A stretch of 64,000 bases of DNA, taken from NCBI GenBank assembly GCA_013390905.1, contig JACATG010000001.1, positions 124,001 through 188,000 on the forward strand. The letters are read 5' to 3'. Of the stretch, positions 51,301 to 61,837 are shown one piece after another. Source of the DNA: Marine Group I thaumarchaeote (GTDB lineage Archaea; Thermoproteota; Nitrososphaeria; Nitrososphaerales; Nitrosopumilaceae). Position 1 is the stretch's first letter. Each line of letters starts with the position of its first letter. The translations under genes were made by a program, and so were the position numbers. Below the pieces are notes generated by a model. That model was not told the DNA's origin. It was given only the letters and a program-made list of their open reading frames with translations, and did not search any database.

Positions 51301-52626
51301 ATGCAAAATATTCTACTTCAATTAGATACAAGTGAAATTCAAAACACTATTGATAATACTGTTACTACTTTAATTGAACAGATAACTCCCGAGCTTCCTC
51401 ACACTAGTTTTATCACTGATTTAGCTTTTATCATGATTATTGGTGCTATAGTTACACTTGCATTTTTTAAAATAAAACAACCCTTGATCATTGGTTATCT
51501 ATTTGCAGGAATGTTGCTTGGTCCTCTCTCTCCATTTTGGTCATGGCTTTTACCTGAAGGAGGTCCTACTAGTGCTTTAGGCGGTGTAGGAATTTTATCT
51601 GATATTGAGGCATTGAATCTTTTTGCTGAAATTGGTGTCATCTTACTTCTTTTTGTAATCGGTATTGAATTTCCATATTCAAAAATCAAAAGTATTGGTC
51701 GTAAGGCAATTGGAATTGGAAATATAGGATTATTCTTGACAATGGGTGTCATATTTTACGTGTCTACTTTGCTTGGACTACAATTCATGGATGCATTATT
51801 TATTTCCGCAGCATTATCAATATCAAGTACTGCAATTATTGTTAAGATTTTTGAGGATACAGGACAAATCAAAAAAGAATCTTCTTTACTTGTACTAGGT
51901 ATTTTAATTGTTGAAGATGTAATTGCAGTCATTCTGATTTCTTCATTACAATCTATTGCCTTAGTTGGAACTGTATCTATAGAATCTATTATTGCAGTAG
52001 TGGCCGTTGCAATTGCTCTTATTGTTGGAACATTTACTATTGGAACCCGTGTAATTCCTCCACTAATTGATAGAGTTGCAGCCACAGAACATCGTGAAAT
52101 TTTACTACTTAGTGTTCTTGGTCTCTGTTTTGGATATGCGTTATTTGCAAACATTGTAGGATTATCTGTAGCAATTGGAGCATTTTTGGCAGGTGTGCTT
52201 GTTGCTGAATCCAAATCAGCCGAAGTCTCAAAACTTCTTTCAAGTCCAATTAAAGACATGTTTGTAGCCATATTCTTTATCTCGGTTGGTGCACTGATGG
52301 ATGTTTCCCAGCTTGAAAATTACATTGTTATAGCTATTGTTTTGATTGCAGTTTCTATTGGCATGAAATTTGGAGGTAATATGCTTGGAAATATCATATT
52401 TAGACAAAAACGTGGAAAGGCACTTCGTTCTGCATTTTCCTTAGCTGCTCCAAGAGGCGAATTCTCAATTGTAATTGTAAAGGTTGGTGCAGATATGGGT
52501 GCAGTTAGTGCCTTTTTGTTCCCTATGATAGGTATGATTTCTATAATTACCGCAATTATTACACCTTTTTTGATGAAAGCTGGTGATAAAATAATTCCTG
52601 CAATAGAAAAGAAAGAAGATGTCTGA
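51301..52626 (+). CDS. Cation:proton antiporter (CPA2 family)
   Basis: The 441-residue membrane protein has about 12 hydrophobic segments. CPA2/Kef-type hallmarks include 'KIKQPLIIGYLFAGMLLGPLSPFW', 'EIGVILLLFVIGIEF', 'ALSISSTAIIVKIFED', 'LGILIVEDVIAVILIS' and 'IGAFLAGVLVAES'. It exchanges Na+ or K+ for H+. It lacks the C-terminal TrkA-N domain of KefB/KefC, but the next gene overlaps by eight bases and could supply a regulatory subunit. ATG 51301 was preferred to TTG 51283, which lies inside the 26-bp palindrome. Confidence 0.9.
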   Translation: MQNILLQLDTSEIQNTIDNTVTTLIEQITPELPHTSFITDLAFIMIIGAIVTLAFFKIKQPLIIGYLFAGMLLGPLSPFWSWLLPEGGPTSALGGVGILSDIEALNLFAEIGVILLLFVIGIEFPYSKIKSIGRKAIGIGNIGLFLTMGVIFYVSTLLGLQFMDALFISAALSISSTAIIVKIFEDTGQIKKESSLLVLGILIVEDVIAVILISSLQSIALVGTVSIESIIAVVAVAIALIVGTFTIGTRVIPPLIDRVAATEHREILLLSVLGLCFGYALFANIVGLSVAIGAFLAGVLVAESKSAEVSKLLSSPIKDMFVAIFFISVGALMDVSQLENYIVIAIVLIAVSIGMKFGGNMLGNIIFRQKRGKALRSAFSLAAPRGEFSIVIVKVGADMGAVSAFLFPMIGMISIITAIITPFLMKAGDKIIPAIEKKEDV

Positions 52627-58920: not shown

Positions 58921-59805
58921 ATGGATATTGAAAAATTCGTAGCAGAAAACGGATTATCTGATTTTCCAATTGGTTTAGGCGGTTGTAGAATTACTGATTT
59001 ACATTTTGATTCATGTGAGTATGACATTGTTGTTTTTGATGAAAAATCAGAACCAGAAAAAATTGTTAAATCTGGAAATGAGTTTGTAATGATTCATCAT
59101 GCTTCCTTGTCTGAAACTCTATCAAAAAAACTTCTTCAATATGACAAACTACAGATAATTCAAGATGAATCATGGGATTTACGTATGCTATTATCAAAAA
59201 TCAACGAAAAGCGTTCCTCACTCTTTACTGATTTTGCAAAAAATTGTTTAATTGAATCTATGTTTTGTTGTCAAAAAACTAAAGAAGCAATTCAAACATC
59301 TGATGTTTTTGCTCCATGTTGGCAAAAATGTGCTTCTTACTATTTAGCTGATGCCATATCTTCTTTAAACAACCACAGAACAAGTCCTTCTCATATGCTA
59401 AACTTGCTTCGAAAATTTGGAAAAAGTCCAATTAATGAGCGTATCTCAGTTGTCACTCAAACAGTTGGAATTGAAAGAGCTACTCCAACTTTGCTTGAAC
59501 GTATGCTAAAGTCAACTATTGGATTTTCTGATTTAGTTGAAAAAAATAACCATTCTCAAATTATTCAGCAAAAACATGATTACTTTTTAAAAAATTCAAT
59601 GCTTTCTGACTGCTACTTCTATTTTGGTTATATTAACAAAGAGAATTTTATAAAAATTAAGGATACTTTGAACAGGAATCAAGATCTCATCTATATTCTG
59701 AAGATTGCTTTTGATATTGAATCTGATTCTAATTTATTATTACAACAAGCAGAACTTGTCCAGAAATCCTGTAATGAGATACTTGAGATAGTCTCTAAAG
59801 CGTGA
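58921..59805 (+). CDS. Hypothetical protein with conserved-looking cysteines
   Basis: The 294-residue soluble protein is not recognised. It opens 'LGGCRITDLHFDSCEYDIVVFDEKSEP', has an alpha/beta start, then a largely helical body with 'LIESMFCCQKTKEAIQTSDVFAPCWQKCASYYLADAISSLNNHRTSPSHMLNLLRKFGK'. Six cysteines and several histidines are in this half. The C-terminal 100 residues are helical. No signal peptide or membrane segment. It is possibly an archaeal lineage-specific enzyme; nothing more can be said. Confidence 0.65.
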   Translation: MDIEKFVAENGLSDFPIGLGGCRITDLHFDSCEYDIVVFDEKSEPEKIVKSGNEFVMIHHASLSETLSKKLLQYDKLQIIQDESWDLRMLLSKINEKRSSLFTDFAKNCLIESMFCCQKTKEAIQTSDVFAPCWQKCASYYLADAISSLNNHRTSPSHMLNLLRKFGKSPINERISVVTQTVGIERATPTLLERMLKSTIGFSDLVEKNNHSQIIQQKHDYFLKNSMLSDCYFYFGYINKENFIKIKDTLNRNQDLIYILKIAFDIESDSNLLLQQAELVQKSCNEILEIVSKA

Positions 59806-59858
59806 ATTTCTAGTATATGGTGCTAACCTTTTAAAACAAGTAAGATTACTGGTTTGAC

Positions 59859-60011
59859 ATGGTAGATCAAGCATGTGGCTGTGAAGCAGATAGCGGCGAT
59901 CCTGATTACTCATGTGATTGTGCAATGCAAGGTCATTGTATTTGTAGTGCAGATTGCAAATGTACAACCGATGTTTGTAAAGAGGCTGTCGGACAATTAT
60001 CATCAGTATAA
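59859..60011 (+). CDS. 50-residue cysteine-rich (metallothionein-like) protein
   Basis: The 51-codon frame encodes a protein with nine cysteines: CGC at 6-8, CDC at 19-21, CIC at 27-29, CKC at 33-35 (spaced ADCKC) and C40, plus His26. Repeated CxC units and acidic residues (EADSGDPDY) are the usual composition of metallothioneins and small metal-buffer proteins. A TTTTAAAA box lies at about 59829-59836, about 25 bases before the ATG, typical of a leaderless archaeal promoter. It is too short for normal calling and appears unannotated by length alone. Confidence 0.78.
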   Translation: MVDQACGCEADSGDPDYSCDCAMQGHCICSADCKCTTDVCKEAVGQLSSV

Positions 60012-60046: not shown

Positions 60047-60214
60047 TTAATCTTCTTCTTCCTCAAAACCCCAAGATTTCACTAATTCTTTTTGGAACTT
60101 GTCAGCTTGTTTTCCGTCTAGTGCAAATCCACAGTTCTTGTGCGTTGGAACTACAGTCATTCCATCCATTTTGAACTCTACTTCAAACAAGTGAACTTTT
60201 GGGCATTCACACAT
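60047..60214 (-). CDS. 55-residue Cys/His protein
   Basis: The 56-codon frame encodes MCECPKVHLFEVEFKMDGMT-VVPTHKNCGFALDGKQADK and an acidic end (GFEEEED). Ligand-like residues are C2, C4, H8, H25 and C28. It converges with the cysteine-rich gene at 59859-60011 (35 bases between). The combination of strands and a helical end gives a real-protein feel. Function unknown; a metal-binding role is a guess. Confidence 0.65.
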   Translation of the reverse strand: MCECPKVHLFEVEFKMDGMTVVPTHKNCGFALDGKQADKFQKELVKSWGFEEEED

Positions 60215-60334: not shown

Positions 60335-61837
60335 GTGAATCAATTTATTATTGTATTTATGTTCTTGACTATTGTCTCTAGTTTTGGGTTTTCAAATCTT
60401 TCTTATGGTCAGGGCACTGGTACAGCTGGTGGTGTTAATGTTGAAGGTTCGTGGTATTTGGGTGAGGGCCTCAAAGATGGAGATTATTTTGAATATTCTA
60501 TGTGTGAAATAGATCTTAACGACTGTGCACCTATTAAATTGAAAATGTGGATCAAGGGAACCATATCACATGAAACTGAAACATTATGGGATGTAAGAGT
60601 TGTAATCATTGATGGCAATAAGATCATCAAAGGTTCATGGGGTCTTGGTAAAACTTCTCCTGAACCTATAACATTTGATGATGATCTCTTTCATTATGCT
60701 ATAGCATTCAAGTCTTCTTTGGCTTGGTTAGGTGCTTTTGCTACTGGAACTGAAGGTGATCGAATTCATGGACCACAAAAGTTCACAGCTCCTGCATGGG
60801 GAAAAATAGGTGCAATTGGTGGTGCTCAATTAATTCCAATACGAGAAGAAACAATAATTGTTCCTGCGGGAACTGTTGATACAATTGTTGTTGGTTGGTA
60901 TAGTGGTGATTGGAATGAAATCTGGATAGTAGATAATTTTCCTTATCCTGTTAAAGCAATAACTTATACCTGGATTACCACAGGCATTCCTCCAATAATG
61001 CATCAATACACTTTGTTAGATTATCAAGAAAATGTAATGGATGATCCTTTCAAAGATGTTGTAGAAACAATCCCAAAAGAAGAGTTATTTGGATGCACTA
61101 CAGAATTTCCTAATTATATCGGTAAACATGTTACTACAAAACCTAATCATACCATACTGGTTCAGTACAATTATGCTCCAGAATTTCCTATGGAGGGCTG
61201 TAATATTGACTGGAAAATTAACTTCATGAATCCGTATAATGATATTGAATTTATAGATCAGCTTCATTATGATATTTGGGTTCTGGATGAGGATGGGAAT
61301 AAACTGCGTTCATATGCAGAAGACCTTGGAAAAACAGAACTGTTTAATGGATTCGGTCAGGTTCATATTCTTCTCCCAGTAGAAGAAGACGCAGGACTTG
61401 TCCGCTATGTAATATTTGTTCATGGCACAGGACCAGAATATGAAATCCCTGATGCCAAAATGGGTGGATATGTTACTATAGAAATTGAAATAGACAAGAA
61501 TCCTCTCTATGAAAAATCTATTGTAACTACACCAACCACTCAAGACTTGGATGAAAAATCTAATGAAATTCCATCATGGATAAAAAACAATGCAGGCTGG
61601 TGGGCTGATGGTTCAATTGATGACGATTCTTTTATTCAAGGCCTTCAATTTTTGATCAAAGAAGGAATTATGCAGATTCCTCCAACTACACAAGGTATTG
61701 GTAGTGGTACCAATGAAATTCCATCATGGATAAAAAACAATGCAGGCTGGTGGGCTGATGGTTCAATTGATGACGATTCTTTTATTCAAGGCCTTCAATT
61801 TTTGATCAAAGAAGGAATTATGACTATTTCTTCTTGA
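60335..61837 (+). CDS. Large secreted protein with two near-identical WADG repeats
   Basis: The 500-residue protein has a signal peptide (FIIVFMFLTIVSSFGFSNLSYGQG), a beta-rich body of about 390 residues with several Trp/Gly strands and few Cys (probably disulfides), and two C-terminal repeats 'NEIPSWIKNNAGWWADGSIDDDSFIQGLQFLIKEGIM' separated by a short linker. The start is GTG 60335. It is probably attached to or part of the cell surface. The repeats may anchor it or bind other surface proteins. Relative of the secreted protein at 12.5 kb. Confidence 0.85.
   Translation: MNQFIIVFMFLTIVSSFGFSNLSYGQGTGTAGGVNVEGSWYLGEGLKDGDYFEYSMCEIDLNDCAPIKLKMWIKGTISHETETLWDVRVVIIDGNKIIKGSWGLGKTSPEPITFDDDLFHYAIAFKSSLAWLGAFATGTEGDRIHGPQKFTAPAWGKIGAIGGAQLIPIREETIIVPAGTVDTIVVGWYSGDWNEIWIVDNFPYPVKAITYTWITTGIPPIMHQYTLLDYQENVMDDPFKDVVETIPKEELFGCTTEFPNYIGKHVTTKPNHTILVQYNYAPEFPMEGCNIDWKINFMNPYNDIEFIDQLHYDIWVLDEDGNKLRSYAEDLGKTELFNGFGQVHILLPVEEDAGLVRYVIFVHGTGPEYEIPDAKMGGYVTIEIEIDKNPLYEKSIVTTPTTQDLDEKSNEIPSWIKNNAGWWADGSIDDDSFIQGLQFLIKEGIMQIPPTTQGIGSGTNEIPSWIKNNAGWWADGSIDDDSFIQGLQFLIKEGIMTISS
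61562..61672 (+). repeat. 111-bp direct repeat, copy 1
   Basis: This segment of the WADG-repeat protein gene is identical, by eye, to 61712-61822, offset by 150 bases. It encodes 'NEIPSWIK...KEGIM'. Absence of even silent differences points to recent duplication or gene conversion. Confidence 0.9.
61712..61822 (+). repeat. 111-bp direct repeat, copy 2
   Basis: Second copy of the repeat at 61562-61672. The 39 bases between the copies encode the linker QIPPTTQGIGSGT; after the second copy only a few codons (TISS) remain before the stop. Confidence 0.9.

Follow-up and report, generated by a model that had tools for sequence, protein, structure and literature searches.

Metallothioneins are proteins of low mass in which cysteine makes up about 15-30% of the residues, with CxC motifs and few or no aromatic residues and histidines; high conservation outside the cysteines is unusual for them. 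The beta domain of the animal proteins binds three Zn or Cd. The bacterial metallothioneins SmtA, BmtA and NmtA are of small size and use histidine as well as cysteine, and we take PF02069 to be their Pfam model. In the part of the source used here, these three are described as small, cytosolic and Cys-rich (PMC8790569). How copper is held inside the cells of marine ammonia-oxidising archaea is not settled. These archaea are very abundant and depend on copper enzymes. The Csp copper-storage proteins belong, as we understand it, to the family PF03860 (DUF326). According to the sections of one study on which we draw, Csp has been proposed as a copper store in the soil species Nitrososphaera viennensis, where it carries 18 Cys, or 15.3% of the sequence (PMC7785015). 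For the marine N. maritimus, the same sections propose only an unknown chaperone other than CopC, which would deliver Cu to CopD (PMC7785015). In the present study, we describe a conserved, family-wide protein with nine cysteines which, together with its membrane-bound twin, is a concrete and easily expressed candidate for metal buffering.

A conserved gene with nine cysteines

The features of the locus are given below, with positions counted in the window, that is, the whole stretch of 64,000 nucleotides that was analysed.

58921-59805, + strand: upstream gene of 294 aa, syntenic, with no Pfam or NCBIfam match
59822-59842, + strand: putative promoter with the extended TATA element GCTAACCTTTTAAAACAAGTA, recognised by the TATA spacing and the conservation of CTAACCTTTTAAAANAAGT
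59859-60011, + strand: stand-alone gene of the metallothionein-like candidate P0001, 50 aa with nine Cys, recognised by homologues, pN/pS and frame conservation
59913-59963, + strand: core CDC-x5-CxC-x3-CxC, whose Cys are spaced as at the beginning of the beta domain in animal metallothioneins
60047-60214, - strand: convergent gene of 55 aa, with near-invariant C2, C4, H8, H25 and C28 among 67 homologues
60335-61837, + strand: gene of the downstream 500-aa protein, without Pfam match and with two near-identical terminal repeats (NEIPSWIKNNAGWWADGSIDDDSFIQGLQFLIKEGIM)

When the sequence was re-read, the 50-codon frame with ATG, stop and nine Cys of the preliminary description was present at 59859-60011, and its translation is MVDQACGCEADSGDPDYSCDCAMQGHCICSADCKCTTDVCKEAVGQLSSV. 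The Cys are placed at 6, 8, 19, 21, 27, 29, 33, 35 and 40, which is 9 of 50 residues (18%). CxC units had been announced at five places; the nine positions stand, but they make up four CxC pairs and one lone Cys (C40). Such a density had also been held to be hard to explain by chance. In 60 first-order Markov simulations of the window, stop-to-stop segments of 35-70 aa with at least nine Cys had a mean count of 0.03 and a maximum of 1, in agreement with that claim, but the window itself contains two of them, so it is conservation that decides. The second segment, of 51 aa at 51915-52070 (+ strand), may be a mere shadow frame within some coding gene. Because of it, the Cys count alone is only fair evidence for a gene and no proof.

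Homologues were abundant. A protein search of 100 relatives at E <= 10 gave matches in 63, comprising 59 of 60 genomes of the same genus (own genome included) and four weak ones outside the genus. For the wider searches a profile of 13 rows, built from the own genus, was used. It matched 181 of 200 sampled genomes of the family at E <= 0.1, or 179 without two weak matches (G201 and G242, E > 0.02) which were counted as noise; among the good genomes of the family the figure was 116 of 119 (115 without G201), and all 24 single-contig genomes matched. The 19 family genomes that gave no match are all drafts, each with at least 20 contigs. By the tool's tally all 22 genera of the family have a match, and the suggestion that homologues be sought in related genomes was thus answered positively (179/200 genomes, 22/22 genera). 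Among 300 genomes drawn from the class (family included), four outside the family matched part of the profile (E 0.005 to 0.043). In f8, another family of the same order and presumably that of Nitrososphaera, 5 of 70 genomes gave weak matches only (best E 0.005 to 0.05). Since the matches outside the family (E 0.005 or more) covered the profile in part and the nine-Cys pattern was found in 0 of the 4 loci checked, they were rejected as noise. The search for named homologues started from 183 candidate stretches; 156 could be confirmed, and the best 80 of the 156 were retained. Titles among these 80 include Nitrosopumilus, Nitrosarchaeum, Nitrosotenuis, Nitrosopelagicus, Nitrosomarinus, Cenarchaeum and others, which places the host of P0001 among these ammonia-oxidising archaea.

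The nine-Cys domain was present in 161 of 168 loci; the remaining seven had all been picked up by weak matches (E 0.005 to 0.475). Its 89 distinct sequences show two Cys spacings only, CxC-x(9 or 10)-CDC-x5-CxC-x3-CxC-x4-C, with x10 in 62 and x9 in 27; the search expression required nine Cys in CxC order and allowed gaps wider than those found. In divergent genera many non-Cys residues are altered and all nine Cys are kept. The free form measures 46-51 aa in 82 distinct homologues. Within the first 44 positions, 26 are identical in all 82 of these (mostly closer) homologues, including the nine Cys and the start Met, and the conserved stretches outside the Cys are DQACGCE, GDP and MQ. No CxxC occurs in the domain among the 82, His26 is variable (67 H, 15 A), and the one aromatic position holds Tyr in 81 and Phe in 1. 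Searched as a DNA pattern, the core spacing has three sites in the own genome (control 0), namely the two copies of the domain and a TGC-rich site at C13:51133.

Among the distinct stand-alone homologues, selected by the nine-Cys pattern in the coding frame, all 82 keep this frame open, and the frameshifts that were to count against the gene do not appear in the orthologous interval. For the remaining five frames the corresponding counts are 2, 0, 24, 0 and 58 of the 82; an antisense gene was rejected, as no other frame is open in all of them (best 58/82). Compared with 81 others, the P0001 gene has a median pS of 0.57 (near saturation) and a median pN of 0.042. The pooled pN/pS of 0.077 in this comparison (0.124 over all pairs) shows the constraint relative to the synonymous rate that the preliminary description had proposed to look for.

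The surroundings of the gene are also conserved. At the 72 stand-alone loci among the best 80 of 156, the 500-aa gene lies downstream in 71, the 294-aa gene upstream in 69 and the convergent 55-aa gene in 67. The comparison covered flanks of 3 kb or less per locus, within which none of these three neighbours was seen at the eight fused loci described below. In the most distant cases, L069 and L111, the upstream neighbour is 28-30% identical and the P0001 homologue 83% and 81%. The convergent 55-aa protein, for which no Pfam or NCBIfam family was matched, is possibly a second small metal-binding protein, and the 500-aa product is probably secreted. As the three neighbours tested by Pfam gave no family, no metal gene was recognised beside P0001.

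A leaderless-type promoter had been reported and is indeed present. The TATA-type box TTTTAAAA lies at 59829-59836, with its centre 26 bp upstream of the ATG, and 81 of the 82 distinct stand-alone loci have a TTTAAA-type box with its centre 25, 26 or 27 bp upstream of the ATG; the extended element CTAACCTTTTAAAANAAGT is exact in 51 of 82. In archaeal promoters, a TATA box at such a distance implies that transcription begins at the ATG or next to it, which would make the mRNA of the free gene probably leaderless. In the own genome, the extended element had one match at <= 3 mismatches, P0001's own, and the reversed-pattern control had one forward and one reverse match. A regulon with this element in common was discarded, because the matches (the gene itself) were no more numerous than those of the control.

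Overall, the gene occurs throughout the family, keeps its synteny and is subject to strong purifying selection. A chance Cys-rich frame that is no gene could point to the second nine-Cys segment at 51915-52070, but it is hardly credible and is ruled out by the family-wide conservation, the synteny, the low pN/pS of 0.077 and the promoter at a fixed distance. Together, these results establish the frame at 59859-60011 as a real gene.

A second copy of the domain in a membrane protein

The domain also forms the C-terminal end of a membrane protein of ~455-510 aa, which in the own genome is found outside the window.

About G000:C11:313843-315222 (L031 3844-5223): membrane protein P0002 with the second copy of the domain

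By eye, the sequence of this protein runs from a signal-like segment at the N-terminus through an outer part and one hydrophobic span to Lys/Arg residues and a Pro/Gln-rich tail. Because the hydrophobic span is followed by Lys/Arg charges, the tail domain is read as probably lying on the cytosolic side. The outer part had no Pfam match above the cut-off, and the best Pfam match of P0002, PF21158, was weak (15.8 bits vs a cut-off of 24.2). The AlphaFold model of the membrane protein, made with 7 rows, reached a pLDDT of 34.7. The gene next to it looks, in our judgement, like a CofD-type transferase.

The two copies of the domain in the own genome differ by 9 of 144 nt. In many genomes of the same genus the fused domain is ~44-56% identical to P0001, but a subset carries a fused domain of the free type. 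The fused copy L055 of genome B12T1B11 has its own free copy L068 as the nearest of 82 free copies (97.6%). For the pair L031/L001 (95.1%), the own free copy is tied with one other as nearest, and each of the other seven of the nine free-type fused copies is closer to between 6 and 56 free copies of other genomes than to its own; here L073 was paired with L046 (same DNA as L061) and L058 with L049 (same DNA as L063). The claim of a general gene conversion between the copies was therefore narrowed, the own free copy being nearest in 1/9, tied in 1/9 and surpassed in 7/9. The comparison supports a recent gene conversion in B12T1B11 (L055/L068), a recent conversion is possible in the second genome (L031/L001), and an older replacement could lie behind the remaining seven.

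Possible function of the domain

We believe that P0001 would be a small cytosolic protein which holds a metal cluster through its nine Cys thiolates and works like a metallothionein, storing, buffering or relaying a soft metal, and we put the probability of this at roughly 0.68. A metal-thiolate cluster is suggested by the nine thiolates, of which eight belong to CxC pairs, and by the lack of both CxxC and a conserved His. With 50 aa, 18% Cys and nine Cys in 89 of 89 sequences (selected by the nine-Cys expression), the protein has the mass and Cys content of metallothioneins, and its four CxC agree with their motifs, next to one aromatic residue and the variable His26. The domain would serve in two forms, as the free protein and as the tail of the membrane protein. 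The free form may act as a cytosolic buffer of Cu(I) or Zn(II), and the tethered form may hold or receive metal at the inner face of the membrane. As to the metal, Cu(I) is our first guess and Zn(II) the second. Copper is favoured because of the physiology of ammonia oxidisers and of the distribution of DUF326, which was found in 22 of 70 genomes of family f8 and in 2 of 200 of P0001's family, the reverse of the P0001 domain; this contrast is one between two clades and does not count as independent evidence, and 48 of the 70 genomes of f8 are without a DUF326 match.

In the databases, the tests made place P0001 outside the named metallothionein families of Pfam. It had no Pfam match at E <= 1, and PF00131 (Metallothio) was absent for it at E <= 1 and at E <= 10. 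No match above cut-off in Pfam, NCBIfam or PADLOC was obtained for P0001, the membrane protein and the neighbours P0003 and P0004, or in Pfam for P0006. A permissive Pfam scan of 54 members at E <= 10, in which the HMMER filters can drop very weak matches, reported three families: PF00131 for 15 members (best E 0.0077), Metallothio_5 for 1 (E 6.6) and PF22906, an oxidase-domain model, weakly for 50 (best E 0.021). The prokaryotic metallothionein model PF02069 and DUF326 were not among these three, and DUF326 had no match in the own genome. The best sequence match in the PDB was a UBR box, presumably a zinc-binding domain (E 0.0093 for the profile, 0.14 for P0001 by itself), and the alignment takes in part of the Cys only. 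The structure model of P0001 is of low confidence (pLDDT 61.5), with a C-terminal helix at residues 38-48. In the open-access literature searched, neither a description of the protein nor the phrase 'archaeal metallothionein' was found. The term metallothionein-like in the preliminary description is therefore apt, and the interpretation behind it holds in part: the nine Cys at fixed spacing, the four CxC, the 50 aa and the partial identity with the beta-domain spacing agree with it, but no convincing metallothionein Pfam match does.

Several of these results speak against the metallothionein reading, namely the high conservation outside the Cys, the UBR box and no metallothionein as best match among solved structures, the lack of a recognised metal gene beside P0001, the low-confidence model and the report of PF22906 for more members than PF00131. 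The main rival, which we regard as unlikely, is a zinc-structured adaptor or regulatory module, in which one to three Zn would fold the domain and a partner would be recognised; the tail copy would bring this partner to the membrane, with the free copy as a competitor or regulator. The conserved DQACGCE, GDP and MQ, the helix at 38-48 in the low-confidence model, the reuse of the domain as a tail module and the marginal UBR-box match (E 0.0093) suit such a module, but it would have neither CxxC zinc knuckles nor a conserved His, divergent genera alter many non-Cys residues and keep all nine Cys, and a single structural zinc would not require as many as nine thiolates. It is quite improbable that the product is a Cys-based redox or disulfide-rich peptide, acting as a thiol buffer or secreted; the high Cys content by itself would allow this, but the Cys number is odd, the CxC spacing is fixed, the free form shows no signal peptide by eye, and the tail copy, following a hydrophobic span and Lys/Arg, is read as cytosolic.

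The metallothionein-like reading can be extended, tentatively and with a good deal of doubt, to a first archaeal metallothionein family, free and membrane-tethered, in which recombination would keep the copies similar in some lineages. Such a family would act as a marine copper reservoir in place of the Csp of soil relatives, and the tethered copy would pass Cu(I) between membrane and cytosol. If metal is bound, an archaeal branch with a tethered form would be added to the metallothioneins; we know of no membrane-tethered metallothionein from anywhere else.

Comparison with known metal-binding proteins

Csp of N. viennensis is likewise a Cys-rich proposed copper store of an ammonia-oxidising archaeon, as far as the sections drawn on describe it (PMC7785015). 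In contrast to P0001, it is over twice as long, as follows from 18 Cys at 15.3% of the sequence in these sections, and DUF326 was reported for 0 of the 54 P0001 members. P0001 resembles SmtA, BmtA and NmtA in being small, Cys-rich and presumably cytosolic, but differs from them in that PF02069 was not reported for the 54 members. The comparison with the beta domain of animal metallothioneins (PF00131) shows differences outside the core: the core is followed by x2-CxC-x2-C in the 4mt2 chain and by x4-C in the P0001 domain, whose first CxC lies 9-10 residues upstream of the core. As for the likeness, both have nine Cys per domain, as seen in the PDB 4mt2 chain, and the spacing CxC-x5-CxC-x3-CxC is that of the first six Cys of 4mt2. 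Furthermore, 10 of 20 residues of the core are identical with 4mt2, and 9 of 20 with human MT-2. The simplest reading of this likeness to the animal beta domain is convergence.
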